Source: Oscillospiraceae bacterium
GTDB lineage: Bacteria > Bacillota > Clostridia > Oscillospirales > CAG-272
DNA: 64,000 nt
Direction of reading: 5' to 3'
Assembly (NCBI GenBank): GCA_015064555.1
Contig: SVRZ01000001.1
Location: forward strand, 1 to 64,000
Below are positions 1,919-20,661 of the stretch, in pieces (position 1 is the stretch's first letter; each line of letters begins with the position of its first letter). A program made the position numbers and the translations under genes. A model generated the notes under the pieces. The model was not told where the DNA came from. It was given only the letters and a program-made list of their open reading frames with translations, and made no database searches.

Positions 1919-2944
1919 TCAGGGCTCCGAGGGCTCAGACTGCTCGATCTTCTCCCACGCAGCATAAAGCTCGAGGTCGGAAAGAACGGGAGTGAGGTCG
2001 GTGAAGGCACTCATGGTCGCTGTATTTACCGCAGACTTTGTGTACCAGCCGACGAATTTATATCCGTCACGGGTGGCGGTAGGGATATCCGCACCGCACG
2101 CGGAAAAGTAATTACCGTTTGGAACGGTGAACACCGCCTGGCTTACGCTGAGGGCGGCGGAGTTATCTCCGGGGGCATTCTTGTAGAAGGTGACTGTATG
2201 AGTCATTGAGCCTGGAGTAAGGTCTACGACGGTCTCCCATGCTCCGAATGATTTTTTGTAGATTATCAGGTTGGTGGTGTCGAAACAGAAATCTCCGTCA
2301 TTTCCCTCGGATGCCGCAGGCTTTTCGACCGCGGTGAACCATGTGGGCGGATTCGCAAAAACGAATTCCTCACTCTCGGTGCCGTCCGTGTATATAAGCT
2401 TGATGTAATAGTAGCCGTTTGCATTGTAGCCGGAATCGACCGTTTCAACGCCTCTTCCATCCGCACCGTCGACTCCGTCCTCACCGGGCTTTCCCTCGGG
2501 GATGAGGAAGCGGTGCACGCTCTCGTTATCCATCACGAACACTATATACTTATCGCCGGTCTCGGGATCCTCCTCCTCGCTGACTCTTGCAACGGCAGAT
2601 CCGTCGGGAATGGAAAAGGATATAGGCTCCTCCCCCGGATCGGTGAAGGTTATAACTATGTCGGTCTGCTTCTTTTCGTCATCGTGGCTGTAGGTGACAT
2701 CGTCTATTCCGTTACCGCGCTCACCTGCGTCGCCCTGCTCTCCCTTCGGGATGACGAATACGGTGGGATCTATCATATCGTCACTGTAGCTTATGACGAT
2801 CAAGGTGCTTCCGTCCTCCTGGGGCTTTGCCGTTACCGAGCTTATAACAAGCTCCTCCTCGGCAAAGAAGCTGCCGCATCCGCTCAGCATAAGCACCGAT
2901 AAGAGCATTGCCGCAAGGCATACTGCCGATATTATTTTTTTCAT
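1919..2944 (-). CDS. lipoprotein with collagen-like segments and one InlB B-repeat
   Basis: Predicted surface lipoprotein. The signal peptide ends in a lipobox LSGC with the acylated Cys at 23. The middle contains short Gly-X-Y-like runs (GEQGDAGERG, GEDGVDGADGRG) between acidic beta-rich segments. The C-terminus is a Listeria InlB-type B repeat (TVTFYKN ... GYKFVGWYT ... LYAAWE), the same fold as in the 1929-residue protein of this operon. It is the last gene of the operon; its ATG overlaps the upstream stop by 4 bases (ATGA), implying translational coupling. The molecular role is not known. InlB repeats occur in surface proteins and adhesins, so a structural or anchoring role is inferred. 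Confidence 0.75.
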   Translation of the reverse strand: MKKIISAVCLAAMLLSVLMLSGCGSFFAEEELVISSVTAKPQEDGSTLIVISYSDDMIDPTVFVIPKGEQGDAGERGNGIDDVTYSHDDEKKQTDIVITFTDPGEEPISFSIPDGSAVARVSEEEDPETGDKYIVFVMDNESVHRFLIPEGKPGEDGVDGADGRGVETVDSGYNANGYYYIKLIYTDGTESEEFVFANPPTWFTAVEKPAASEGNDGDFCFDTTNLIIYKKSFGAWETVVDLTPGSMTHTVTFYKNAPGDNSAALSVSQAVFTVPNGNYFSACGADIPTATRDGYKFVGWYTKSAVNTATMSAFTDLTPVLSDLELYAAWEKIEQSEPSEP

Positions 2945-5400
2945 TTTTCGTACTCCTTTGCATTTGCTATGAGATCCTGCACGTTCGGGGATTCTCCGAA
3001 GAGATATCCGTTCTTCACAAGATTGAATCTGAACGGCTCAAAGCCGGTCACGGCAATAACCGTCTTAAGCACGGGACCCTTGATATCCGATATGATATCG
3101 TCCTTCTCGGGTTCCGGCATATTGAGATATGAGTCGAGCAAACCGACACTGAGCGTGCCTCCGATATTGCTCTCTTCATCATCGAGATCAAATTTCACTA
3201 CCGAAAGGTTCGCGCCGCCGCCATAATACGCAACCGTCGCGTTGATGTAGGAATTGCCGCTCTCGGGATCGCGATATACCGTGCCCTGCGAGCCTGCGCG
3301 TGACATAAGCATCGAACGAAGCGGGAATATCGTATCGACCGTTATATCAATGCCACCGGTGGTGCCGATGACCTGATTTGCTATCATTGAGAAGTTTTCC
3401 TCTATAAGACCGCCGAGATCGAATCCCTCGGAGGACTTGTAATCGTAAAAGCGGGTGCTTCCCTTCACCTCAACGGTGACGGGGTATGCAATACCCGAGA
3501 CGCCCTTGGCAACATACGGAACGAGCGCCTTGCCCTGGCTGTCCTTCGCCATCAGCATACCGCCGAGTGTCTCTCCGAACATCGACGCCGAGCCCTCCTC
3601 GAGGAACGGACTGTTGAAAAGACTCTCCATACATATCGAAGAAATGCCGCTACGATAGAAATAAGTGTCCTCTACGGTCGCGGAGCCGTCATAGGCGAGT
3701 GTTTTACCGCCCGTGGAATTAAGCGCGTCCTGCATAGCTTCAAGCGCGCGACGCATGCTTGCCCTTTCGGCATCGTTCTTGCAATATTCGAGAAGGAACC
3801 GATTGAGAAGCGCATCCGCATCACCGTCGGGCTTTATGAACTCGCCGATCAGCATATCCTTCTGCGTGCCGTCCAGCATCTCGAAGGTGGCAACCGCATC
3901 CTTATCCATCGGCAGGTATTTATTCGAGCCGGTGAGGAACAGGAAATTACGCGCATTTGACAAAAGGCAATTCTTTACAGTGAGATCCTTCGAGGAGAAG
4001 CTCCTTATCACGTTCTTTCCGTTTGATATCCTCGAATTGATGACGGTGATACCGTCGCCGTAAACCTCAAGCACGGTGCCTACGGTATCCATATTCGCCA
4101 TTCTGTCGCCGAAATCGCAGTTCTTGATATTTACGTCATTGACCGTGATGCCGTCACCGTCAACGTACATACCGATATTATCCTGACCGTAAAGAGAGAT
4201 CAGGGGCAGATTGTTCGGATCTCCGAGGCAGTAGAGCTTGAGCGGACCGCGGAAAAGATTATCTGCGGTGAGCTCGGGAATACGGACTCCGTTCTGAGTC
4301 GAATAGGAGTATGGGTAGGTGAGATTATGGAGATTGATCGTATAGCCGTTTCCGTAGAAGTCCTTCTGCACATGCAGACCGACATACAGGCTATCGCTCA
4401 CAGGCGAATATCCGCGGTTATTCTTCGCAAACTCGTTCCACTGCTCTATGAACTCGGTGTTATAGGTCGTTCTGAAGCTGTAGACGTCGTCCGGGAAGGA
4501 GAACCTGCCCGTCTTTGTGTCATAGTAGCCGAAGCACTCGACGTTATTTGCCTTGCGGAGAAGCTTTCCGTCCGTCACCATCGGCTTTCCGTCCGAGCCC
4601 AGAACATAGGAATTCTCAAGCGACTCAAAATGGCGCCTGAGGACTACTATCTCGCCCTCTGCGCTTCTGTTGGTGCAGTTGAGAAGATCGTCATAGTTAT
4701 AGACGTTCACCCCGTCCTCAACTATATTGAAGCTATATGTCACGGGGGCGGCAACGCCGTCCTTAGCCCTGACCGTTATATATGCATCTCCGGGAGCAAG
4801 TATATACGCCTTGCCCGTGGATATGTCATAGCTCACGTTATCGCTCGTTTCGGCATATAGCGAGCCGTATATTCCGGCAGGCAGAGCGCGAAGCGTCATA
4901 TCTATGACAGCCGCCTCACCCCTTTTATGATCGTACTGACCGTAATAGACGGTAGAGTCTATATTACTCTGAGAGCTGCCTTCGGTGGGATACATAAGTA
5001 TCGCGGCATCCTTGTATATAACTGCGGTGAGTGAGCGGTAAACGTTACCCTTGGCGTTGCTGCAGGTGACGGTGACCTCTCCGGCTCTCAGTGCGCGCAG
5101 GTAGTATGAGCCCGATTTTTCAACGACCTCGGCATACGGCTCATCGGTGCCGTCCTTGTTTTTGACGCTCCATACGAGCGCACTGCCTCCGGAGACCTCA
5201 TAATGCCGCTGGTTAACGCCTACAGCCCTCAGCGAATACAGGTTCTCCGATATCTCAAACGCCTCCATATCGTTGTAATCCCAATCGATAAAGGATATAT
5301 CAACGTCCACCATATTGTAGGTGGTGTTGATGGTAACGATGCAGAATACCGATATCAGAAACGGAAAGAGAAGGAGGATGATCAGATTTTTCTTTTTCAT
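2941..5400 (-). CDS. large membrane-anchored extracellular protein, beta-helix-like
   Basis: 819 residues from the ATG at 5400; the upstream 16 codons in the ORF track have no ribosome binding site, and this ATG overlaps the permease stop as TGATG. A positively charged N-terminus and one hydrophobic segment (NLIILLLFPFLISVFCIV) predict an N-anchored extracytoplasmic protein. The region around 60-230 looks like bacterial Ig-like beta strands (RAGEVTVTCSNAKGNVYRSL). The middle has repeated N/D/G-rich turns such as DGITVINSRISNGKNVI and SKDLTVKNCLLSNARN, typical of right-handed parallel beta-helices. No catalytic motif is visible. Tight coupling to an ABC permease suggests it is the extracellular partner or cargo of that transporter. 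The family is not recognised. Confidence 0.65.
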   Translation of the reverse strand: MKKKNLIILLLFPFLISVFCIVTINTTYNMVDVDISFIDWDYNDMEAFEISENLYSLRAVGVNQRHYEVSGGSALVWSVKNKDGTDEPYAEVVEKSGSYYLRALRAGEVTVTCSNAKGNVYRSLTAVIYKDAAILMYPTEGSSQSNIDSTVYYGQYDHKRGEAAVIDMTLRALPAGIYGSLYAETSDNVSYDISTGKAYILAPGDAYITVRAKDGVAAPVTYSFNIVEDGVNVYNYDDLLNCTNRSAEGEIVVLRRHFESLENSYVLGSDGKPMVTDGKLLRKANNVECFGYYDTKTGRFSFPDDVYSFRTTYNTEFIEQWNEFAKNNRGYSPVSDSLYVGLHVQKDFYGNGYTINLHNLTYPYSYSTQNGVRIPELTADNLFRGPLKLYCLGDPNNLPLISLYGQDNIGMYVDGDGITVNDVNIKNCDFGDRMANMDTVGTVLEVYGDGITVINSRISNGKNVIRSFSSKDLTVKNCLLSNARNFLFLTGSNKYLPMDKDAVATFEMLDGTQKDMLIGEFIKPDGDADALLNRFLLEYCKNDAERASMRRALEAMQDALNSTGGKTLAYDGSATVEDTYFYRSGISSICMESLFNSPFLEEGSASMFGETLGGMLMAKDSQGKALVPYVAKGVSGIAYPVTVEVKGSTRFYDYKSSEGFDLGGLIEENFSMIANQVIGTTGGIDITVDTIFPLRSMLMSRAGSQGTVYRDPESGNSYINATVAYYGGGANLSVVKFDLDDEESNIGGTLSVGLLDSYLNMPEPEKDDIISDIKGPVLKTVIAVTGFEPFRFNLVKNGYLFGESPNVQDLIANAKEYEK

Positions 5401-6992
5401 CAGTATTGAGTCTCCAGATCCATAAACCATGCATCCATATTGCGCCACACGTTAATAAATACGGGGATACCTATGCCGATGAATATCAGAGCGCCAAACA
5501 GGCATATAAGCCAGATGGGCACACCGACAAAGCTCAGGACGAGCCCCAGTGCTACGAACATGATGGGCAAAAGGTATGCGAACAGCGACGACATAAAGGT
5601 CGAGCGCGGCTTTGCGTGCCTTATGTGGAGCTCCTCACGCATTGCTATCAGGTCGAATACGAACAGGAGCACTGTCGAGAGAAGGAAGGCAAACAGGCAT
5701 ACCAGAGGGGATGCGGCTCTTCCGATAAGTATTACCAGAATAGATATTACAAGCGCCGTCTCCGACATAATGAACGGGATAAGCACCTTTATTATCAGCT
5801 GCCGCTTCGGGCTTATGGGAATTGTTTTAAGGTTTTTTATGGTAGACGCCTCCATCGAGATATAACGGTTGGCACCCGAGCTTATAATGAGTGTTACCAT
5901 CATAACGAGGAAAACGCTTATCATCGACGTGAAATCCGGGAACAGGCTGACGTAATACATAAACGTTCCCGAGGTGAAGATGGTGCTCATGGCGACCACT
6001 ATGAGATAAAGCAGGAAGGGCTCGACCGCAAGAAGGCCCGAGAACGAGAATATGAAATCGGGATTCTTGGTTATAAGAGCAAGCTCCTTCAGGGCAAGGG
6101 CTATATTGACCTTGCGACCTCTGAATTTAAATATCCTCTCGCGCTGCTTCCTCTGAGGTGCAACGTGACGGATATAGCCGTACATAAATACGGTAACTGC
6201 GGTGCCCAGAATGAAAATTCCGAGCGATATGCAAACATAAGGCGTCATTTTCAAGCGTGAGCCCTTTATGAAGAAATCAACCAGGAAGTTGATGGGCACA
6301 AGCCTTGACGTTATTTTCGAGATCTTGGTTATCGATTCGTCGGTAAATATGAGGTTCAGATCGTTATTCGCGACCATATCCACAAATGCCGACAGAACTA
6401 TCGAATAGATGGTAGCTCCGGCAAATAGCAGGACTACCGCCACGGCAAACTCCAGCGCAACGTGCTTTTTCAGGTACTCTATAAGAAGCCATACGGGATA
6501 AACGAGAAGAAGTGCAACACCCACCTCAAAGAGGAAGGACGCGACAGGGTAAAAGATAGCCATATAGAAGAACCAGGCAGTCTTTCTGAATATTATTCCG
6601 TATGCGGTGAATATCGGAAAGGTGAAAAGAAAAGCAGTCGCATAGTGGTTCAGGAAAAGGAATATCAGCTTTGACGATATCATCATACCGTCGCTGACCG
6701 GATGATTGGCAAGCTGATCGATATCCTTCTTGTTGAAGAAGAGCTTCATCGCCTTCAAAACACCGTTTGCCATCATCAGCACCGAGATTACCGCCAGAAA
6801 CAGGCAGGTGAAGGTCTCGGGAGCGCCGCTGTAGCTTTTGATCTTCGTGAGGATAGCAGAGAACAGGAATACCTCTATAGCGATTATCAGCGCGGTCATT
6901 ATCACGCTGAAAATACCGTCCAGAAAACGGCGCGCCTTGCTTTTTCCCGTGGAAAACAAAAGCTTGAAATCCTTAATAAGCAGGGTAAGCAT
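5400..6992 (-). CDS. ABC-2-like permease, about 530 residues
   Basis: Integral membrane protein with roughly twelve hydrophobic segments in two halves, separated near residue 300 by a basic cytoplasmic linker (RKQRERIFKFRGRKVNIALALKEL). This resembles double-length ABC-2 or YtrC-like permeases in which one chain carries both half-permeases. The gene directly follows the ABC ATPase and overlaps it by one base (TGATG), and overlaps the next gene the same way, so the three products are probably made together. Substrate cannot be read from the sequence; the context suggests surface proteins, peptides or lipid-linked material rather than a small nutrient. Confidence 0.7.
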   Translation of the reverse strand: MLTLLIKDFKLLFSTGKSKARRFLDGIFSVIMTALIIAIEVFLFSAILTKIKSYSGAPETFTCLFLAVISVLMMANGVLKAMKLFFNKKDIDQLANHPVSDGMMISSKLIFLFLNHYATAFLFTFPIFTAYGIIFRKTAWFFYMAIFYPVASFLFEVGVALLLVYPVWLLIEYLKKHVALEFAVAVVLLFAGATIYSIVLSAFVDMVANNDLNLIFTDESITKISKITSRLVPINFLVDFFIKGSRLKMTPYVCISLGIFILGTAVTVFMYGYIRHVAPQRKQRERIFKFRGRKVNIALALKELALITKNPDFIFSFSGLLAVEPFLLYLIVVAMSTIFTSGTFMYYVSLFPDFTSMISVFLVMMVTLIISSGANRYISMEASTIKNLKTIPISPKRQLIIKVLIPFIMSETALVISILVILIGRAASPLVCLFAFLLSTVLLFVFDLIAMREELHIRHAKPRSTFMSSLFAYLLPIMFVALGLVLSFVGVPIWLICLFGALIFIGIGIPVFINVWRNMDAWFMDLETQY

Positions 6993-8083
6993 CAGGTACT
7001 GCTCCTATAGATGTCCATAAAGATTTTTGAAAGCTGTATACGTCTGTTGGGATCGCGGTTAAGGTCGTACAGCGCGGCAACCTTACCGTCGTTTATTATT
7101 GCAACTCTGTCGCAAAGCCTTGCAACAAGGTCTATATTGTGCGAGGTGACGAAAACCGTCTTTCCGTGATTTGCATACTCACGCATCATAAGCTTGAGCT
7201 CCTCTACCGCCATGATATCAAGTCCGACGGTGGGCTCGTCGAGTATCCAGACCTTTGGATTATGGAGCAGGCTTGCGACAAGGCATAGCTTCTGCTTCAT
7301 ACCGTGTGAATAGTCGCTCGCGGGGTTGGCAAGCTCGCGCTCGTCGAGCTTAAGACGCGAGCAGAGATATTTGTAATTGCTGACGAAATCGCCCTCGGAC
7401 AGCTGATATATATTGGCTATGAACTCAAGATAGTCGTAGCCCGACATTACCTCATAGCAGGAGGGCTCACTGGCTACGTAGCCAAACGAGCGCTTTGCAT
7501 CGAGGCTCTGCTCCTTGACGTCGAAGCCGGCAAGACTTATACTTCCGGCATCGTATCTCTTGGAGCCTATAACACAGTCTATCGTGGTCGATTTACCTAT
7601 ACCGTTTTTACCTATGAAGCCGAAAAGCTCGCCCTCGTAAACGTCGAGATCGAGTCCCTTCAGGACCTTCTTCTCTCCGTATGCCTTATGGAGTCCTCTT
7701 ATCGATATCATAGGGGTGCGGCCGTCGGGATTTTTGACAACAGGAGCGGAGGGCTTTTCCTCTTCGGCAGTGTCGGCGGTCTGCGGCTTCCCGGCTTCGG
7801 CGCGCTCTGCTTTAGCCTTTTCGGCTTCGGCAGCCTTTGCCTCGGCGGCGAGCCTTTTCTTCTCTGCCTTCTCTGCCCTTTTCTTTTCGGTCTCTGCAGC
7901 CTTTGCCTCGGCGGCAAGCCTTTTCTTCTCTGCCTTTTCGGCATTTGCTGCTGCCTTAACCTTATCGGCCTCTGCCTTTTTTTCCTTAGCCTCGGCCTTT
8001 TTCTTTTCGGCTTCCGCCTTCTTTGATTCGGTATCGGCAGCCGCCGCGCTCTTCTGCGCGGCGCCGCCGTTTTCATTGATCAT
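6992..8083 (-). CDS. ABC transporter ATPase with a 124-residue charged N-terminal extension
   Basis: The ATPase domain begins at about residue 125 (MISIRGLHKAYG) and has Walker A GKNGIGKST, signature SHGMKQKL, Walker B VWILDEPTVGLD and an H-loop in TSHN, so it should be active. The first 124 residues are almost only Ala, Lys and Glu with some Arg and Leu, and contain an internal duplication (AEKKRLAAEAKAAE twice); this predicts a long helix or coiled coil. I start at the ATG at 8083, which follows AAGGTG with short spacing; the ORF track's GTG lies two codons earlier. The extension is unusual for this family and could tether the ATPase to another component such as the AAA+ protein of the operon. 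An internal start at residue 125 could also give a short form. Confidence 0.8.
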   Translation of the reverse strand: MINENGGAAQKSAAAADTESKKAEAEKKKAEAKEKKAEADKVKAAANAEKAEKKRLAAEAKAAETEKKRAEKAEKKRLAAEAKAAEAEKAKAERAEAGKPQTADTAEEEKPSAPVVKNPDGRTPMISIRGLHKAYGEKKVLKGLDLDVYEGELFGFIGKNGIGKSTTIDCVIGSKRYDAGSISLAGFDVKEQSLDAKRSFGYVASEPSCYEVMSGYDYLEFIANIYQLSEGDFVSNYKYLCSRLKLDERELANPASDYSHGMKQKLCLVASLLHNPKVWILDEPTVGLDIMAVEELKLMMREYANHGKTVFVTSHNIDLVARLCDRVAIINDGKVAALYDLNRDPNRRIQLSKIFMDIYRSST

Positions 8084-8098
8084 TAACACCTTAAAATC

Positions 8099-9346
8099 CT
8101 ACTTTCTGATTTTTCGGAACCAAACGTCATCGCCCTTGGAGTCAAGGAATACGTACTGAGAGCCACATTCGTTACAGGTGTAGATGCCCTTGCTCTCCGA
8201 TATCGCGCGAGCGCGGCAGACAGGGCAATATATGCTGTAGATCCTGTGCTCGAGCTTTGCAAGACGAAGCTTGCTCTCAAGCCAGCTTCTGACAAGATTC
8301 TTCTCCGAGGCGCATACGCGGACAGAGGCGGCATCGAGCGCGGTCAGTCCCCACAGCGACATAGACTCCTCCGAGTCATAGCTGCCGAGGATCTGCTCCC
8401 GGTTCTCCTCAACGTCATCAATACTGAATCTGAGAAGATGCTTCGCAGCAGATGCTCCCTTCGGCATAACCGTCATCGAAATAGCACCGTTTGCCACTAT
8501 TTCAAGCTCAATCGAGAAGTGCGCGCCCGAAAGCCTCAGCACGTCGTCACTCATATCGGTGCCGGCAGAGAGCTCGAAGCCCCTTTTCTTCACCGCCTTG
8601 AGTATAAGAAGCACGTAGTAGAGCATCAGGTCCGCCTTTATCGCCTCAACGTCCTCATAGCAGACGAAGCGGCGGTAGAAGCGGTAGCAATGGCAGTACA
8701 ATCTGTCCTTGGTGAGTATATTCGTCGGCTTTATTCTGCCCGAAATGGGCTTCTCGCGGCTGATGGTCTTATAGAAATACGTCCCCTTTATGAAGCGTAT
8801 CTTTCTTTTCAGCCTGTCAACCGTTATGATAAGATCGCCAACCTCGTTCTTCGGCAGACTTGCGCTTCGCGAATCGTAAGTCGGTAGCTTTGATACGTAG
8901 AAAGTGCTGTATTTGGTAAGCTCGCGGTCGACCATATCGATAAGCAGGCATACGAATTTATTTTCGTATATGCACATCTCGTCGATATGCTGATTATAAT
9001 GAACCTCCTCGGGTATCATCTCCATGCCGTGACGGTGCCAGAGCTTACTGTCGATAAGCACCTGGCGAAACTCGTCATTTCCGAGCGAGCCGACCTTTTC
9101 AACTCTGAGAACGACCTCCTCGGTCTTGTTGGAGATGTGAGGATGGTAGATTATAGATATTATAACGTTCAGCAGAGAGGTGACTGCGTGCAGAAACTCA
9201 ACGTCATGCTCCAACGAGGCATTCTGAAGCGAGATAAGCTCCATTTTTTCGATATCCGAGAAAAGAGCGGATACCGAGCGGCGTTTATTCAGCTTCAGCG
9301 ACTTGTGTATAAGGTCGTTGAGCTCTGCGGTTTCTATAAATCTCAT
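8099..9346 (-). CDS. zinc-ribbon protein resembling McrC/DUF2357-type partners of McrB ATPases
   Basis: 415 residues, no signal or membrane segment, so probably cytoplasmic. The N-terminal half contains HIDEMCIYENKFVCLLIDMV, which resembles the conserved ENRFV segment of DUF2357/McrC-like proteins that pair with McrB-type ATPases. The C-terminus is a zinc ribbon with CPVC (about 374/377) and CNEC (about 391/394). I see no PD-(D/E)xK nuclease motif, so nuclease activity should not be assumed. The gene lies one base after the McrB-type ATPase gene and 15 bases before the ABC ATPase gene. It is inferred to be an adaptor or regulator of the AAA+ protein. The family call is tentative. Confidence 0.5.
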   Translation of the reverse strand: MRFIETAELNDLIHKSLKLNKRRSVSALFSDIEKMELISLQNASLEHDVEFLHAVTSLLNVIISIIYHPHISNKTEEVVLRVEKVGSLGNDEFRQVLIDSKLWHRHGMEMIPEEVHYNQHIDEMCIYENKFVCLLIDMVDRELTKYSTFYVSKLPTYDSRSASLPKNEVGDLIITVDRLKRKIRFIKGTYFYKTISREKPISGRIKPTNILTKDRLYCHCYRFYRRFVCYEDVEAIKADLMLYYVLLILKAVKKRGFELSAGTDMSDDVLRLSGAHFSIELEIVANGAISMTVMPKGASAAKHLLRFSIDDVEENREQILGSYDSEESMSLWGLTALDAASVRVCASEKNLVRSWLESKLRLAKLEHRIYSIYCPVCRARAISESKGIYTCNECGSQYVFLDSKGDDVWFRKIRK

Positions 9347-9347
9347 A

Positions 9348-11171
9348 TTACAAATTCTTTATGATGAACGAAGCGGTCCTTACAGATCTCTTCATTACAC
9401 CGTGACCGTAAGTCTTTTCAAGAAGCGATACAAGTCCCTCGAGAGAATCCTTGATGTGATCCTCGAATCTGCCCTCGAGCTTGGATATAAGCTTCTTGGA
9501 TATCATAAGGTCGATAGCGGTTTCCTTCTTGCCGCCCGCCGCAACGAATACGGGGACGATATTCTCTATCTGATTGAGTATACGGTTTCCGATAGCAACG
9601 TCAAACGCTTCGTACGCATACGCGAGCACCTTGTTAAGGCGCGTTCTGTCGGTATCGGTGAGCAGAAGCTCGGGATCCGAAAGAGCCTTGGTGTAAAGCG
9701 AACGAAGAGTCGAGTGGCTGAGGTTTATGGTAGGCGTTTGTGCCTCTACCTCAAACGGCTTGTTGTTCTCGGTGAAGTCCATGGTTATCGCACGGTCGTA
9801 AACCTTATCTGTAATAGTGAAGGTGGAATCGTCCTTGTTCGCAGTTCCTACGAAGTAGGAATTCTCGGGGATGCGCACGTATCCCTCCTCAAGCTTGATG
9901 GGAGGAACGAAGCCGAAGGGGAGCTGCATTACCTTGAGCTTCCACTCGGCAACAGGGTATTCGAGCACCGAGAGAAGGTCTGCAAAGTAGTACTCTACTC
10001 TCGATATGTTCATCTCGTCGAGAACGAAGATGTTGATCATATCGGGATTGTAGTTCGCCCTGTAAAGGCTTGAAAGAAATTCGGTTTCCGAATAGGTCTT
10101 TGAGAATTCATTGAAGAATCCGACAAGGTTGGTTTTATCCCTCCAGGTAGCCTGAACAGGCATAAAAAGTACACTACCGTTTACATATTTAGCGAAATAA
10201 CGGGGTAAAGAAGACTTACCTGTTCCGCTTAGTCCCTCGAGTATCTGGAAGTGAGAAGCCGCAAATCCCGATATAAAGAAGCGAATAACGTCTATATCGA
10301 AGTAGAGCTTTTCCTCCTTCGCAAGGTAATTTCTGAAGCCCTCGCAAAGAGCATCAAGGGTGGGTGTATCCGTCTTTTCGAGCTTTTCCTTGACGAATCC
10401 CTCATATTCAACGTCGATACGGGAGAGCTCGGGGAATACCTTCTCGCGGTCTGCGAGATTTTCGGTGTCCTTGACGACCATGTCACCCGAGCCGCCTTCT
10501 CCGCCGCCGTTTCCACCGTTTCCGCCCTTGCCGCCGGCGCCGCCTGTCTGATTTTCACCCTCGCCATCGCTCTTGACGTCGAACGAGCTCTTGACGTCAA
10601 GATCCGCCTCTATCTCATCGGCAAGAACAGGAGCCTTGTCCGAATCAAAGAAGCGATAGGGCTTGTCGACAAAGATGAAGTTGACAACGAGCATTACCAC
10701 CGAGCCTATCGCTATGAACAGCAGCACGTAAAGAAGCGTTGCAATAACGAGCGATTGACCGAGGAAGCTGAAGGTCAGACCGATATTTTCCGCGCTCCAG
10801 GGCTTCTGAAGAAGGAATCCGAAGCCTATCGAAAGAACAGCACAGGCAAAGAAGGTGCCCACGTAAACGCCGATCATCTTGGGAGCGAAGGTCTTTATTC
10901 CGTTTACGATAGCATATCTGCGCTCATAGCAGATAGCGCATATCATAAGGAGTATGTAGAAGTCAACGAGCACAAGGAAAAGGAATGCAGAGGTTCCCGC
11001 ATCTATCGGCTTGAAGCCGAATGCCCTTCCCAAGCCCGCTATGGGGTTCTTAGAGCTGATAACGCCGGATTTTGCATCGAGGCAGGCTCCGACAAACAGC
11101 AATATCATTGAGTAAAATACTGCGAGAGAGATCGTTATAAGATTCTTTCTCGTTATAAGCTTTTGAAACAT
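9348..11171 (-). CDS. membrane-anchored McrB-type AAA+ ATPase
   Basis: 607 residues in three parts. Residues about 10-170 hold four hydrophobic segments. Residues 200-235 are a Gly-rich acidic linker (GGAGGKGGNGGNGGGEGG). From about 240 there is a AAA+ domain with Walker A GLSGTGKSS (313-321) and Walker B VLDEMNISRVEYYF (from about 383), the pattern of the McrB family; GTANKDDSTFTITDKVYDRA resembles the sensor/MNT region. Classical McrB proteins are soluble restriction ATPases with an N-terminal DNA-binding domain. Here that domain is replaced by membrane segments, and neighbours are SipW, TasA-like proteins and an ABC transporter. A role in handling proteins at the membrane is more likely than DNA restriction, but this is inference. 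GTP or ATP preference is not predictable. Confidence 0.7.
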   Translation of the reverse strand: MFQKLITRKNLITISLAVFYSMILLFVGACLDAKSGVISSKNPIAGLGRAFGFKPIDAGTSAFLFLVLVDFYILLMICAICYERRYAIVNGIKTFAPKMIGVYVGTFFACAVLSIGFGFLLQKPWSAENIGLTFSFLGQSLVIATLLYVLLFIAIGSVVMLVVNFIFVDKPYRFFDSDKAPVLADEIEADLDVKSSFDVKSDGEGENQTGGAGGKGGNGGNGGGEGGSGDMVVKDTENLADREKVFPELSRIDVEYEGFVKEKLEKTDTPTLDALCEGFRNYLAKEEKLYFDIDVIRFFISGFAASHFQILEGLSGTGKSSLPRYFAKYVNGSVLFMPVQATWRDKTNLVGFFNEFSKTYSETEFLSSLYRANYNPDMINIFVLDEMNISRVEYYFADLLSVLEYPVAEWKLKVMQLPFGFVPPIKLEEGYVRIPENSYFVGTANKDDSTFTITDKVYDRAITMDFTENNKPFEVEAQTPTINLSHSTLRSLYTKALSDPELLLTDTDRTRLNKVLAYAYEAFDVAIGNRILNQIENIVPVFVAAGGKKETAIDLMISKKLISKLEGRFEDHIKDSLEGLVSLLEKTYGHGVMKRSVRTASFIIKNL

Positions 11172-11251: not shown

Positions 11252-12298
11252 TTATTCATCGGTATTGTCCTTAGCAGAGACATCTTTGCCGTCGGATAGC
11301 TCCTTCTCATCGGGGGGCTTTTCCTCGCCGGAGCGGGCTTTCACTTCGGAATCGGATACCGCTGCTGTGGCATCCTCCTCTTTTATCGGCTCCTCGGACT
11401 CAACCTCTGTCTTACTTATAAATTTTTTCTCGTTGAAGGTGTAAATAAAGTTTTTGAACCTTACGGTTTCAACAAATGAGCTTTCCAATTCATCATCGGG
11501 GACGGTTTCTCTTTTGAAATCAATAGAGCTTTCCAGAAAGGCGAGCCTATCCTCCTCCGCACGCGATATCTTATCGTTCACCCTATCGAGCATGATAAGG
11601 CAATATATCAGAGCAGCCATAGTCAGAATACCCGAATAGGACTGCAGGAACATAACGAAAAGACCTACCATATGAACGCTTTTTCCGGTATACTTACCGA
11701 TGACGTCATCAATGGTTGGGCGGTATTTATCATTGAGATTATTCGAGTCACCGCGCGTGACGTATCTTATACCGTCTGCGGTGTACTCAATGTCAACGAT
11801 TCGGTGGATAATATTATTTCCCTCATCGTTAACAAAGGCTATAACATCGTATTTTTTCAGCTCGGCGGTCGAATCGACCTTCTCCACAACTATCATATCG
11901 TAGGTGGGGATCTGATCGTCAAGACCTGCAAGATAGGTATTTTCCTCGTGCTTCTGGCTCATAGAGCCCGAAACGACTGCTATCATACCCTTATCAAAGA
12001 GCATAACCACACCGTTCTTCAGCTTGCTGACCACCGACAGTATAAGAAAGGGTATCAGAAGCGAAAGCGCGACACAGGATAGCACCTGCTTGATAACGGC
12101 AGATGCCTTACTCCATCTTCTGTTTTTTGCGATATTTTGCCAGATAGTGTCCTCTATCAGCTCAACGTCCTTTTGCCCCGATTCGAGCTCTGCCACCAGC
12201 GATGCGGCGTAGGAGCGATATAACAGTGTTATTATCGTCGCAAATCCCACTACGCCGACCGCCGAAACGAGCAGAGCGATTATTTCAAGGGATGTCAT
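11252..12298 (-). CDS. sipW: SipW-type (ER-type) signal peptidase I
   Basis: Membrane protease that removes signal peptides from TasA/CalY-type exported proteins. The catalytic Ser is in VVSGSMSQ (about S112). The general-base position is His rather than Lys (NIIHRIVD, about H165), the hallmark of the SipW or eukaryotic-type signal peptidases. The third box is YVTRGDSNN (about D184). Hydrophobic segments lie at about 5-27, 72-92 and 215-240. The protein is longer than B. subtilis SipW, with a cytoplasmic region before the second segment and an acidic, low-complexity C-terminal tail of about 100 residues (SEEPIKEEDATAAVSDSE). It follows three TasA-like genes and one giant gene that are its likely substrates. 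Confidence 0.92.
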   Translation of the reverse strand: MTSLEIIALLVSAVGVVGFATIITLLYRSYAASLVAELESGQKDVELIEDTIWQNIAKNRRWSKASAVIKQVLSCVALSLLIPFLILSVVSKLKNGVVMLFDKGMIAVVSGSMSQKHEENTYLAGLDDQIPTYDMIVVEKVDSTAELKKYDVIAFVNDEGNNIIHRIVDIEYTADGIRYVTRGDSNNLNDKYRPTIDDVIGKYTGKSVHMVGLFVMFLQSYSGILTMAALIYCLIMLDRVNDKISRAEEDRLAFLESSIDFKRETVPDDELESSFVETVRFKNFIYTFNEKKFISKTEVESEEPIKEEDATAAVSDSEVKARSGEEKPPDEKELSDGKDVSAKDNTDE

Positions 12299-12318: not shown

Positions 12319-13074
12319 TTACGGAGATGCGGTTATGGTTATTGTATACTCGGGAGCGGTATATTCGGTAGGGTTAGCGATATACTCGTCATAGCTTACA
12401 CCGCAAACGGTAGCTCTGAGAGTGTCAAGCTCACGCTTAACATTCTCCGAGGAAACTGCCTTTCCCGCAGCATCTTCATCGTAATATTCGCTGGGGTTTA
12501 ATCCGTTAAACTTCTCGCCCCACTCAAACTCAAGTCTGCAGGTGAGAACGCCTACCTTAACGGTGGAACCGCCACCGGTATCTCTATCCTCTACCTTGTA
12601 GCTCCAGCCGTCATCAAGAGAATGATCGGAGCTGTTCATACCGTTAACTATCAAAACCTGACTCTTTACCCATGCAGGAATCTTGATGTATCCTGCGGTC
12701 TCTGCTGCAAGAACGCCATCGGGTATTATCGAATCGATGGTGATGGTTGCAACAACGTCGAGATTGGTGAGCTCAACGAAGAACTCAACTGCAAGGTTCT
12801 CGGAATTCTCACCGTCCCAACGAACTCTTCCTGTGCTATCGTCTGCAAGGGGCTCGAAGTGTATTTCCTTCTTGTTATCAACATAGGTAACCTCGCTGAT
12901 GCCGATCTTAGCCTCGTTGGTTATACCGACGTTAACGTTTCCGCCGGCGTTTTTGCTAACCGATGTGGAAAGCACCCAGGTAGCAAAACCGGTTGCGGTA
13001 AGTGCGAGTGCTGTGAAAACAGCAACTCCGAAGACGATTATCTTCTTCTTAAATGAACTTCTTGTTAATCCCAT
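12319..13074 (-). CDS. TasA/CalY-like SipW-dependent exported protein (copy C)
   Basis: 251 residues. The N-terminus is a SipW-type signal: basic start, hydrophobic core, then ATGFATWVLST. The mature part is beta-rich with segments such as VEFFVELTNLDVVATITI and LTCRLEFEWGEKF, resembling the jelly-roll of TasA and camelysin-type proteins. No protease motif is visible. It lies 20 bases before sipW, so processing by that enzyme is expected, followed by export and perhaps assembly into fibres. It could be a minor fibre subunit or an anchor; which of the copies is the major subunit cannot be told from sequence. Confidence 0.75.
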   Translation of the reverse strand: MGLTRSSFKKKIIVFGVAVFTALALTATGFATWVLSTSVSKNAGGNVNVGITNEAKIGISEVTYVDNKKEIHFEPLADDSTGRVRWDGENSENLAVEFFVELTNLDVVATITIDSIIPDGVLAAETAGYIKIPAWVKSQVLIVNGMNSSDHSLDDGWSYKVEDRDTGGGSTVKVGVLTCRLEFEWGEKFNGLNPSEYYDEDAAGKAVSSENVKRELDTLRATVCGVSYDEYIANPTEYTAPEYTITITASP

Positions 13075-13101: not shown

Positions 13102-13833
13102 TCAGGCATTACCCTCGGTGCTGAAGGTAAGCTTGAAGGTAACGTCCGAAATAGCGGCGATTCCGCTGAGTGCAGCATCTGCCTCTGTAGCCTTCTCGGT
13201 GGAGTAAGCGAAGCTGTTGAAGTAATCGTAGGGGTTAGAGGGAGTGGTCTCTTCGGTCTTTGTGAAGTCGCCGCCCCATGAAAATTCTACGGTTACAACA
13301 AAATCCTGAGAAGCCTTGTTCTCATCAAATGCCTTCTTGGTGGTTACCTCCATAGCATCAGCTGCAGCCGATGCACCGTCGATCTTAACGGTGGTGTGAC
13401 CTATGTAGCCGTTGGTGGTAGCTGCCGCATATGCGTTGCCTGCATTGTCAACTATTTCAAAATCAACTACGAAATTCGAAAGGATCTCTGCAAGATCAAC
13501 GCCTGCTTCGCTGCCTGCCTTCGACTCAACCTTAACGTTAAAGGTTGCGGTAAGAACCTCGTTCTGAACGTCAGTTCCTGCATAAAGCCAAGGGTTGTTA
13601 ACCGACGAGGAAGCCGGCTTACCGAACTTGATTGCGGTGTTTTCAGAGGATACAAGAGTAATGGTAACGTCGTTATCCTCTACGGTGTAGACCTCAAACG
13701 AGCCGGTTGTTTCAACAGGCTCTGCGGGCTTGATGATAAGCCAGGATGCGAAACCTACTGCTGTGAGTGCAAGGCATGCTACGATGCTTGCGATTTTGAT
13801 TCCAAGTGATGTCTTAATTTTTCTGCGTGTCAT
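13102..13833 (-). CDS. TasA/CalY-like SipW-dependent exported protein (copy B)
   Basis: 243 residues from the ATG at 13833, which has AGAGGA upstream; the ORF-track start 17 codons earlier lies in an A-rich leader and lacks a ribosome binding site. The signal region ends in AVGFASWLIIK, the same export motif as the other three copies. The mature part is Ala/Thr/Glu-rich and beta-structured (EVLTATFNVKVESK, DFVVTVEFSWGGDF, DVTFKLTFS). The EFSWGGDF/EFEWGEKF motif is shared with copy C, so the two are paralogues. The long leader upstream and its simple composition make it a candidate for the abundant subunit, which is inference. Confidence 0.75.
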   Translation of the reverse strand: MTRRKIKTSLGIKIASIVACLALTAVGFASWLIIKPAEPVETTGSFEVYTVEDNDVTITLVSSENTAIKFGKPASSSVNNPWLYAGTDVQNEVLTATFNVKVESKAGSEAGVDLAEILSNFVVDFEIVDNAGNAYAAATTNGYIGHTTVKIDGASAAADAMEVTTKKAFDENKASQDFVVTVEFSWGGDFTKTEETTPSNPYDYFNSFAYSTEKATEADAALSGIAAISDVTFKLTFSTEGNA

Positions 13834-14071
13834 AGTGTTTTCCTCTTTTCTTTCGCCACGGGGCTTTGCGATACCCCGGGGCATATTTTTTGTTTTTTGT
13901 TTTTGTTTTTTTGCTTTTGGACGTTTACTGAATTTTGCCTTGGGTATGTGCGATTTATTTAAAAGTATTTGCGCGTGGATTTGAAGTGCGCGATTGCGGT
14001 GCGCACATGCGCGGGCGCGGCGCGATTATTTGCGCCGCGTGCGCATATTTGAAGAAGTATCTGATATCTGA
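13834..14071 (-). other. structured intercistronic region between the giant gene and TasA-like copy B
   Basis: 238 non-coding bases. Near the giant gene's stop is a very GC-rich stem-loop at about 14007-14046 (ATGCGC ... GCGCGGCGC-gattatt-GCGCCGCG ... GCGCAT) without a T-run. Downstream comes a run rich in A on the minus strand (CAAAAAACAAAAAACAAAA) and a CCCCGGGG palindrome just before the ribosome binding site. The hairpin looks like a processing or stability barrier that could give the downstream subunit genes a different mRNA level. A weak promoter cannot be excluded. Confidence 0.5.
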
Positions 14072-17000
14072 TCAGACGTAACCGTGCTTGACGAGGTAAT
14101 GCTCAATGTAAGCAACGATCTTTTCGAAGGTTATGTGTCCCTTTCCGACGGCTATCTTGAAGTACTGAGCCTGGAACATATTGTATACCTCCTCGGGGAT
14201 ATACTCCGCGAAGTCCTCATATGTGTAGAGTCCGTACTTTTCTATATCAGCCTTCATCTGCTCGGCATCGTAGTTAAGATCGCTGTCATATTCAAACATA
14301 TTGAATATACCGTCTATACCGCCGGGTATCGAAAGCATTCCGTCGATGAGATAGTTAAGATGATATACGGTTACCAAGCTGTAGCAGCCTGTGTACTCAA
14401 CCGTTACGTAAGCCTCCTCGAGAGTTACCGCGGTGAATCCGTCACCGTCCGCCATAGCGAACTCGTGACCTACGAAGTCCTCACAGTTACCCTCGGTGAT
14501 ATATACGTATCTGCCGAGCGTCATATCAAAGAGCGCGTGCTCGTAGATAAGTCTTGTAACGATTCCGTTCGAGAATCTGAGATTGATGATGCTGTATTCC
14601 ATCCAGCCGTCATCCTCAATGAAGATGATGCCCGCCTCAACGAATCTGCCGCTCTCATGGTCGTAAACCAGAAGGACATCATCCATTGTAAGCTCCTCAA
14701 CCGGCTTGACGCTTCCGTCTGCCAGAGTGATAAGAGTACCTGCGGCGATACAGCTTCCGTCACTACCGACAAGGGTTACCGATCTAGCTGTGGTAATTTG
14801 CTCGTATGCAGACAATCCGCTCTGCGATTTTGAATTACTGGGCTCGATCTTGACATATTGACCACTCATTACGTAGAAGTACTTCGTGCTGACTGCACTA
14901 TCGGTTACAGACGTATTGGATATTTCGTTGGTTCCATCAAGACTGAGTCTTACCGTATAGGTAGGAATCTTGCCTGAAGAAGCGTCACCATCTACACCCT
15001 TCTCTGTGATTACCTCAATAACTATTTTTTCCTTCCAATCGGGATAGATGGTCATCGTTCCGTCGCCCGAGTCGGTTACGGTCAGACTGTCGGTTATCTG
15101 GCCGGTCTTCGCTGAATCCAGATAGCATACAGTGCTGTACTCCGGGAACGTTAGGTCGTAATTGTACTCATTCACCCATTCGTCTATAACACTGAGTGCA
15201 ATATTCGTAGAGTGTATGTACCAGCGATGTGAACTCGTGCCATATGCCGAAGGAATATTAAGTACAACCTTGACCTTGCTTGCCATATTTGCAACCAGCA
15301 CTACAGAAGTATTATCGGCAAAGAGTGCGTAAAGGTCATCATCGGTAACTATAGTTGCGCTACCGAACTTCCAGCCGCCAAAGTACTTGTTGGTTGCGGT
15401 ATTGTCATCCTGTGCGGATGCCATCGAGAAGTAGGAGCTGTCAGAACCGGGTAACGGGTTATCAATGAAGTCTGTCTTTGCAGTCTTGATCTGTTCGGGA
15501 TTCAGATAAATCACAGCACCTGTGAACTGAACCCTGGTGCCGACAATGTCGGTTCCGGAATCTGCAATTGCCTGAAGCTGATATTTATCAGCCCAAACAC
15601 CGGAGATATCAAGGACGTTATCCTGCCATAATTCGGGAGGAACTACGCCGTTTTCAATCTTGACTCCGCCAACCTCCCAATGCGAGAAGTATCTGGTAAC
15701 ATTGATATCTTCATCCTTAGCAATTGCTGTTTTCGTATACTCTATGATTATTGCTTCGATCTGACTCTGAATTACATATTCGGTCTTGCTGAAGCTTATC
15801 GCATTTGTGCTTGCACCCGAGTTACCCGAAATGTTGAGAACGTACTTGTTCTCCCATACCGCGGTAACGGTGAGTGCACCGTCTGTGAACATACTCGGCG
15901 TGATAACGATTATCTCGTCACCCGAGGAATCAGTCCAACGGCTGAAGTACTTGTTGGTATCTCTTGCAAGATCATACTGCTTCGCCTGAGCTTCGTAGGG
16001 CTTGATATAATTTTCAAACGCCTCCGCGATCTGAGATTCCACAACGTAAACAGTTCCTGTAAGAGTTATAGGATTGACGCCGGCACCCGAGCTTCCGGTA
16101 ACCGTGATAATATTCTTATCGCCGAAGGTTGCTTCGACTGTAAGCTTCTTATCAACGAAATCGGAGATCGAGATGCTGTCCTTACTCCATCCGGTGAAGA
16201 ATCTGGATGTGGCAATGTTCGTATCCTGTGCCTGTGCCATCGTTCTATAGGACTCAGCGTTTTCAAGGTAGGGTATATTGAGGTATTCGCTTATCGCCAT
16301 GCTTATCTGACTTTCATGCAGGTAGATAGTGGGAACCGTTACCTGTACTCTGGTTCCGATAGCAGCGGCGCCCGAATCGATCAGGACGGTCAGTGCGTAC
16401 TTATCGGCATATTCTGCCGTAAGTGTAAGTGCACCGTCGTCTCCGAAGTACTCATTTTTAAGTCCTGCGGTTAGATCATACTCGGTATTACCGTTCTCGG
16501 TATCTATGAAGCGGAGGAAGTACTTGCTGATCTCTGTGTTGAGATCGGATGCACTTGCCTGTGCCACATATTCGTTCATTATAGTCGCATACTGAAGATG
16601 TGAAACGTAGATGTTGGTTATGTTAATGTCTATTCCAAGTCCGTTGCTTGCCACTATATTGAGAACCTTCTTTGCTGACGAGCCTGCGGTAAGCTCAAAT
16701 CTCGCTCCGTCCTCTGCATCCGCAGGGATAACGTCAGCAAGAGTCGTTACCTCTGCTCCGTTATAGAGCCAATGGTCGTAGCAAAGCTGCTTTGTTATAT
16801 CATATGCATCCACGCTGATAGGCAGAGGAGCTTCCTCTCTCTGAGTCGCCGCGTAGATCTGCTCTGTCGTGCTTCCGTCCGGATACGTGTAAACCACGTA
16901 ATACCTGAGCTTGGTCCATTCTCCACGGATGGTAACGGTTACGTTATCCTCATTCGGTACGGAGAAGTAGGAGAGTAACTCAATTCCGGAAAGGGTAGTC

Positions 17001-19905: not shown

Positions 19906-20661
19906 TCAGTTGGTCTTTTCCACCCATGCTGTGGACACAAATTCGGTGCCCGCCTTATCTCCGCTTGCCTCCCGGAGATATCTGCCAAGACAATGCCTGA
20001 AGTTTGCCGGAATATCAGATCCCGTAAGATTCTTTGGTATCGAGAAGGTATACACCACCTTGATATCCTTCGTGCCGGTGGAGGCAAGCCCTGTAAGAGT
20101 TGTGTCTATATTAAGTATTTTGCCTTCGATGTTTGTTATCGTTTTGCTCGCCCCATCAACCGTTGCCGTTATCGCGTACGAATATTTATATGCATCGTGC
20201 GCGATGGTGTTATTCATCGAGGTATTGAACAGCTTACCGTCATTAACATCCCTGACGTTTTTCGCAAGAAGCGAAAGGTGCAGGTCAAGACTGCCGTTCC
20301 AATCATTTCCAAAGCTTGACTTGCAATTTGCAAGATTTATGCGGTAGGTAACCGATATCTTTCCCGAATCTGTCAGGTTACCGCTTGCATCAACAAAGCT
20401 CTCTGCCCTGTAATCAAATATCTCAACGTCGCCGTAGAGATAAACGAGATCGGTCGAATGAGCGACACCGTATGAATGAAGCTCACCTGTCGCGGTCGTA
20501 TTCATCCCCGAGGGAGCAACAATTATCCAGGATGAAAATCCGATGCTCACCATCGTCATGCAGAAGAGAAGCGGCATAGCAAGCATGAGCGATCTGAGTC
20601 TTTTCATTGTGCTTCTCGACTTTTTTCTTTTCTTTCCGGTTGATTTGATCTCACCGTACAT
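19906..20661 (-). CDS. TasA-like SipW-dependent exported protein (copy A), first gene of the operon
   Basis: 251 residues. A long basic N-region (KSTGKKRKKSRSTMKRLRS) precedes the hydrophobic core and the export motif SIGFSSWIIVAPSG. The mature part has beta-strand segments (ISVTYRINLANC, LDLHLSLLAKNV, KDIKVVYTFSIP) similar in layout to TasA-type proteins but clearly diverged from copies B and C. The first ATG follows AAAGGAGG with 10 bases between; an internal Met at 19 has no good ribosome binding site. It opens the operon behind a 190-base leader. It may be an anchor or cap protein next to the giant protein; this is inference. Confidence 0.7.
   Translation of the reverse strand: MYGEIKSTGKKRKKSRSTMKRLRSLMLAMPLLFCMTMVSIGFSSWIIVAPSGMNTTATGELHSYGVAHSTDLVYLYGDVEIFDYRAESFVDASGNLTDSGKISVTYRINLANCKSSFGNDWNGSLDLHLSLLAKNVRDVNDGKLFNTSMNNTIAHDAYKYSYAITATVDGASKTITNIEGKILNIDTTLTGLASTGTKDIKVVYTFSIPKNLTGSDIPANFRHCLGRYLREASGDKAGTEFVSTAWVEKTN

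Follow-up and report, generated by a model that had tools for sequence, protein, structure and literature searches.

A membrane-anchored McrB-type ATPase and a McrC-like partner without a conserved nuclease motif in a SipW-linked surface-export operon

In the 64,000-nucleotide stretch of Oscillospiraceae DNA analyzed here (the window), a McrB-type gene (9348-11171, minus strand, 607 aa) is followed after one base by a McrC-like gene (8099-9346, minus strand, 415 aa). Both proteins are probably involved in constructing the cell surface and not in DNA cleavage, because the nuclease part has been lost, a membrane anchor has been gained and all 28 loci examined lie within one conserved set of surface-export genes. 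With moderate confidence, we interpret the pair as a non-nucleolytic, membrane-tethered motor of the McrBC type that serves SipW-dependent export and assembly of surface proteins. The first-pass annotation had proposed a restriction-type ATPase pair adapted to work on proteins at the membrane, outside a defence setting. The data presented below support this proposal in part: the nuclease is lost, a membrane anchor is gained and the setting is not one of defence, whereas action on proteins would be a prediction. The annotation overlooked that a SipW-type signal peptidase precedes the pair and an ABC transporter follows it.

The window operon begins with a surface subunit, the 1929-aa surface protein, two further subunits and SipW, and continues after SipW with McrB, McrC, the ABC ATPase, the permease, F7 and the F6 lipoprotein. 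In order of transcription, its genes are:

19906..20661, minus strand: third putative small SipW substrate, 251 aa (GFSSWI signal)
14072..19861, minus strand: giant surface protein, 1929 aa, with Listeria-Bacteroides repeats (GASSWL; Flg_new 1e-10)
13102..13884, minus strand: putative SipW substrate, surface subunit, 260 aa (GFASWL signal; family alignment)
12319..13074, minus strand: putative SipW substrate, surface subunit, 251 aa (GFATWV signal; family alignment)
11252..12298, minus strand: SipW-type (Ser/His) signal peptidase (TIGR02228 above cut-off)
9348..11171, minus strand: membrane-anchored NxD McrB-type AAA+ NTPase, 607 aa (motifs, tree, AF2, hydropathy)
8099..9346, minus strand: McrC-like partner with DUF2357-type helical domain and zinc ribbon, 415 aa (profiles, alignments)
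6992..8089, minus strand: ABC transporter ATPase (Pfam ABC_tran 2.3e-23)
5400..6992, minus strand: predicted ABC permease, 530 aa (conserved order; no Pfam match)
2941..5448, minus strand: exported protein F7, 835 aa (conserved order; no Pfam match)
1919..2944, minus strand: lipoprotein-like F6, 341 aa, with List_Bact repeat (LSGC lipobox by eye; TIGR02543)

The 530-aa protein is predicted to be an ABC permease from its place after the ABC ATPase. Base composition (0.49 versus 0.489) does not mark the operon as foreign DNA. None of the scanned window proteins proved to be a restriction enzyme or a methylase, in agreement with the first-pass statement that no methylase or defence gene is near, and the same scan found none of the nucleases or helicases of CoCoNuT neighbourhoods in the operon.

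The arrangement is conserved. We gathered 28 loci of the four-helix form from Bacilli and Clostridia by several routes, and in all of them SipW, McrB and McrC follow each other in that order on one strand. Gene ends within this trio are mostly short-spaced or overlapping, and in 4 of the 28 a single large gene separates SipW from McrB. The conserved operon comprises surface subunits with a GFASW signal, SipW, McrB and McrC, to which an ABC ATPase, a permease, the exported F7 and a lipoprotein are added in almost every case. Nearly all loci encode the ABC ATPase beside McrC or further downstream (next to McrC it goes undetected by profile in one, L131), the permease, F7 and F6 come next in most, and the F6 gene is relocated beside McrC in three (L135-L137). 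Loci recovered with the partner profile alone show the identical operon type. Hence, the link to the peptidase is no artefact of choosing SipW-linked matches. The gene-distance correlations (0.64-0.95) are a sign of joint inheritance and not of contact.

The architecture of the ATPase is summarized by four features:

10683..11150, minus strand: four membrane helices, aa 8-163 (hydropathy; AF2)
10212..10235, minus strand: Walker A GLSGTGKS, aa 313-320 (invariant in alignment)
10014..10028, minus strand: Walker B core FVLDE, aa 382-386 (D385 and E386 invariant)
9831..9839, minus strand: NxD signature N-K-D, aa 445-447 (alignment; definition in PMC11090510)

Aligned relatives are 45-61% identical to the window protein, and the McrB-like Walker motifs seen at first pass are invariant: GLSGTGKSS, VLDE.NISR and the sensor-like GTANKDDST occur in 13/13 sequences. 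The Walker B motif of the window ATPase reads VLDEMNISR, its M being nearly invariant. McrB-type GTPases divide into those with an NxxD and those with an NxD motif, the latter mostly followed by E or D (PMC11090510). As the motif reads N-K-D-D and is invariant in 13/13, the window ATPase belongs to the NxD branch. Both the NxxD motif and the N-terminal DNA-recognition domain of canonical McrBC are absent. The first-pass annotation had read four membrane segments in place of a DNA-binding domain; hydropathy (four hydrophobic stretches at the N-terminus) and AF2 (helices 8-31, 59-89, 97-121 and 127-163) agree on this point, and hydropathy indicates no membrane helix ahead of the ATPase domain in soluble McrB relatives and E. 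coli McrB. The linker that connects the four helices to the ATPase domain is poorly conserved, has very low AF2 confidence and is probably flexible. The AF2 model of the ATPase resembles the AAA+ domains of RavA, MCM and dynein with modest scores, as is expected for an AAA+ protein, and a PDB sequence search with the ATPase profile gave no match.

Judged by its sequence, the 415-aa partner is a DUF2357 (McrC N-domain) protein without a conserved nuclease motif. Two elements stand out:

8954..8968, minus strand: YENKF segment, aa 127-131, in the DUF2357-type domain (invariant except residue 130)
8165..8227, minus strand: C4 zinc ribbon CPVC...CNEC, aa 374-394 (four Cys invariant in 28/28)

The window partner alone matches DUF2357 below the Pfam cut-off (E 0.09), and 7 of 13 partner relatives match the Pfam family (best 3.7e-7). 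The comparison with DUF2357 that the first-pass annotation had suggested for the zinc-ribbon protein, carried out as a profile comparison with DUF2357 proteins of other McrBC loci, yields a match of 97.7% (E 1.4e-12) over residues 44-286. This homology ends ahead of the region that bears PD...(D/E)xK in nuclease-bearing members. YENxF and CPxC...CxxC are among 27 invariant positions in 13 aligned partner sequences, and Cys374/377/391/394 and Tyr-Glu-Asn 127-129 are invariant in 28/28 homologues, so that the ENKFV-type segment and the CxxC/CxxC ribbon picked out earlier are, in their core residues, constant throughout. Among the 28 homologues, the columns with at least 93% conservation map to the DUF2357-type portion or to the zinc ribbon, and the stretch between residues 217 and 374 has none. 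The first-pass annotation saw no nuclease motif; a hidden PD-(D/E)xK was sought, and the C-terminal region of the 28 homologues holds no conserved D/E/K set. Foldseek with the partner model found no significant match to a solved structure; scattered weak matches, some to nuclease-like folds, were set aside. A PDB sequence search with the partner returned only zinc-ribbon matches, e.g., to ribosomal L37Ae-type proteins. Since the fold search is uninformative, an inactive nuclease fold in the partner is possible and an active one unlikely.

These properties bear on whether the pair might be a membrane-located, Type IV restriction-like defence system that is tied to the surface operon and senses, for example, events at the envelope such as phage or DNA entry. 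In the literature, the family is classed under Type IV restriction (PMC11090510), and the ATPase matches the PADLOC candidate PDC-M26A (2.7e-34). This match, however, is largely limited to ~125 residues of the ATPase core, and among the PDC-M26 models only M26A is matched while the partner models are not. Occurrence is patchy: the partner profile is matched in 20/296 sampled genomes from the class of one relative (an Anaeroplasma MAG) and in 7/391 genomes of the window's class, there mostly weakly, and the four-helix form is present in 2/35 genomes of the window's genus, where some other genomes have the two-segment form; some genomes seem to carry both. Yet patchiness is equally usual for surface structures. 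Carriage by viruses or plasmids was considered and set aside, as no phage or plasmid record covers 80% of the window ATPase. The 87 flanking proteins gave a few matches to defence models, mainly to single-gene candidates, with no established defence system and no restriction-modification or CRISPR set in the listed families, and by Pfam the flanking genes belong mostly to housekeeping families. Restriction of the ATPase homologues to defence islands, which the first-pass annotation had named as evidence against its reading, is thus not observed: 28/28 are located in a surface-export operon. Together with the missing nuclease motif in the partner, the retention of this operon makes a defence role unlikely.

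Next to the surface-building role, the phylogenetic position of the ATPase has to be considered. A maximum-likelihood tree of 51 ATPase domains unites the four-helix proteins of Bacilli and Clostridia in one clade (support 95/96), which is joined by L077, a related multi-helix protein without SipW. Two-segment/coiled-coil proteins encoded beside signal peptidases form a second group (84/96), which was defined via its SipW neighbours and also clusters in this tree built without that information. Tandem McrB-McrC-McrB loci constitute a third group, CoCoNuT-like plasmid proteins and E. coli McrB stand apart, and the deepest branching order is unsure owing to long branches. A signal peptidase is encoded within a few genes in 28/28 four-helix loci and within four genes in 17/17 two-segment (2-TM) members, as compared with 0/12 soluble McrB examined and 0/11 other membrane-anchored McrB proteins in the tree. 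Nearby signal peptidases are confined to membrane-anchored McrB clades, though some of those have no SipW nearby. Over the ATPase domain, the window clade can be aligned with the CoCoPALM-like 2-TM clade from end to end (39% identity, E ~1e-101); the profile alignment starts at residue 227 and the membrane helices do not align. A zinc ribbon is present in the partner in 28/28 members of the four-helix clade versus 0/17 of the two-segment clade.

An RNA- or DNA-targeting system of the CoCoNuT kind could in principle have been co-inherited with the surface operon by chance, given that CoCoNuTs are soluble NxD relatives (PMC11090510) and that CoCoNuT-like plasmid loci were found. This is highly improbable, because the gene order is retained in 28/28 loci even though partner identity to the window falls to 22%, and because a second clade is also linked to signal peptidases.

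Several related arrangements were observed alongside. Four loci (L090, L091, L092 and L093, in each at around position 8-13 kb) have the tandem McrB-McrC-McrB order, in which two different membrane-anchored NxD ATPases flank one McrC-like gene; no signal peptidase is nearby, and the loci often lie beside a gene of ~900-1470 aa. In the window's genus, L067:3762-8092 and L068:7752-11673 encode an NxD McrB with ~8 membrane stretches and a zinc-ribbon McrC partner, with no SipW. The tree neighbour of this McrB is that of an unverified phage record, L101:4789-7263 (MT835511.1, labelled bacteriophage from human faeces), in which a soluble NxD McrB is encoded together with a McrC-like partner that has a zinc ribbon. 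Many two-segment (CoCoPALM-like) loci have two SipW-type signal peptidases, one on either side of the McrBC pair, and in L062, L063, L065, L066 and L081-L087 the gene after McrC encodes a second SipW-type signal peptidase.

The closest described relative is CoCoPALM, a signal-peptidase-linked, membrane-anchored NxD McrBC that is named in one paragraph with the promise of a follow-up (Bell et al., eLife 2024; PMC11090510). No later use of the name was found in the open-access literature searched, where the CoCoNuT paper and its preprint were the only relevant records on McrB or McrBC with SipW or a signal peptidase. Both CoCoPALM and the window system combine an NxD McrB-type GTPase bearing a membrane segment with a McrC partner and an adjacent signal peptidase. 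Thus, an association of NxD McrBC with a membrane segment and a signal peptidase has already been reported in general terms, and the idea is not wholly new. In CoCoPALM, an FtsB-like membrane and coiled-coil region is fused to the GTPase, and coiled coils are usual but not universal in both proteins (PMC11090510). The four-helix domain of the window protein, in contrast, is unalignable with the 2-TM/coiled-coil clade, the window McrC has a zinc ribbon and the window operon has its own ABC transporter. No coiled coil is evident in the AF2 models of the window McrB and McrC, in which the linker is of low confidence. The four-helix system is therefore a separate clade near CoCoPALM and not a proven member. 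CoCoNuTs share the NxD motif, and their McrC homologues often have a zinc ribbon and an inactive nuclease (PMC11090510), but they are coiled-coil GTPases with nucleases or helicases nearby, whereas the window ATPase is membrane-anchored. E. coli McrBC likewise has the McrB-type ATPase gene directly followed by the McrC-type gene; E. coli McrB, however, carries NTAD (NxxD) and no membrane helices, where the window McrB has NxD and four helices, and E. coli McrC has a D-x-K nuclease core (DAKY), where the window partner has no nuclease motif.

The SipW-type peptidase of the window scores 67.2 bits against TIGR02228 (cut-off 51.85) and falls below the cut-off of the narrower NF046067. Ser112, His165 and Asp184 are invariant in 28/28 loci. 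The signal motif G[FAVIT][AST][AST]W occurs in exactly four window proteins, all in this operon and all with the narrower form G[FA][AS][ST]W, and G, F and W are each at least 90% conserved in the signal of 21 substrate-family members. The putative substrates were also considered as TasA or camelysin, and Pfam and PDB sequence searches detected no similarity to either. The 1929-aa surface protein (14072-19861) has a weak Hint-like (self-processing) stretch close to its C-terminus, at residues 1701-1778 (E 0.04), which starts near CIAAGTLITLADGSVKPVEEL; weak matches to Hint, Cas8a and Cas10 models in the window were taken as chance or shared-fold.

Gly41, Asp44 and Arg251 of SipW, outside the catalytic motifs, are also invariant in 28/28 and are candidate contact sites for the ATPase. 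Such contacts would also suit a pair that regulates SipW or envelope homeostasis: it would sense export stress via the four-helix domain and control the peptidase or the ABC transporter, with no pulling of substrates involved. In this view, the zinc ribbon might serve for sensing or docking. The invariant Walker A, Walker B and NxD motifs point to sustained hydrolysis over simple sensing, and we regard a purely regulatory role as rather unlikely.

For the favoured export motor, we envisage that the McrB ring would be located on the cytoplasmic face, with the McrC-like protein serving as activator and adaptor. The motor might recognize those parts of SipW or of signal-anchored precursors that lie in the cytoplasm, and NTP hydrolysis might pull, unfold, release or order the recognized proteins, leading to controlled processing and assembly of subunits. 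The ABC transporter and the lipoprotein might handle a linked product or anchor the structure. That McrB forms a ring, that the partner activates it and that it acts on SipW or its precursors, as well as the step that the motor powers, is what we infer from these data.

The operons tapA-sipW-tasA of B. subtilis and sipW-bsaA of C. perfringens also have the gene for a SipW-type peptidase next to those for small exported proteins that carry a hydrophobic signal. Unlike in the window, the sections consulted on these operons mention no McrBC or ABC transporter (PMC9674648, PMC7395162), and the window proteins have no detectable homology to TasA. In C. perfringens, secretion and polymerization of the fibre protein BsaA are described as requiring SipW (PMC7395162), and the assembly of B. 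subtilis TasA fibres is described as donor-strand exchange, in a paper that does not mention ATP (PMC9674648). A motor is thus not generally needed, because no ATP is mentioned for TasA assembly and no McrBC for the C. perfringens sipW operon. The motor may add control, precursor release or a way of dealing with very large substrates, the 1929-aa protein among them.

Relatives of McrBC are commonly regarded as defence systems. The lineage described here provides a clean and testable case in which the motor was retained while the nuclease disappeared, and in which a membrane anchor and a place in a fixed surface-export operon were acquired; it sets the four-helix clade apart from CoCoPALM proper. 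This suggests that the McrBC census includes systems with no part in defence. The pair could also supply the energy for SipW-dependent surface assembly, a process for which the papers compared describe no motor. More tentatively, a restriction-enzyme motor may have been converted into a membrane NTPase dedicated to driving SipW-dependent export or fibre assembly in monoderm bacteria. It would be the energy-using counterpart of the passive TasA pathway, and at least two unrelated membrane anchors would have been placed on one McrB-type motor.
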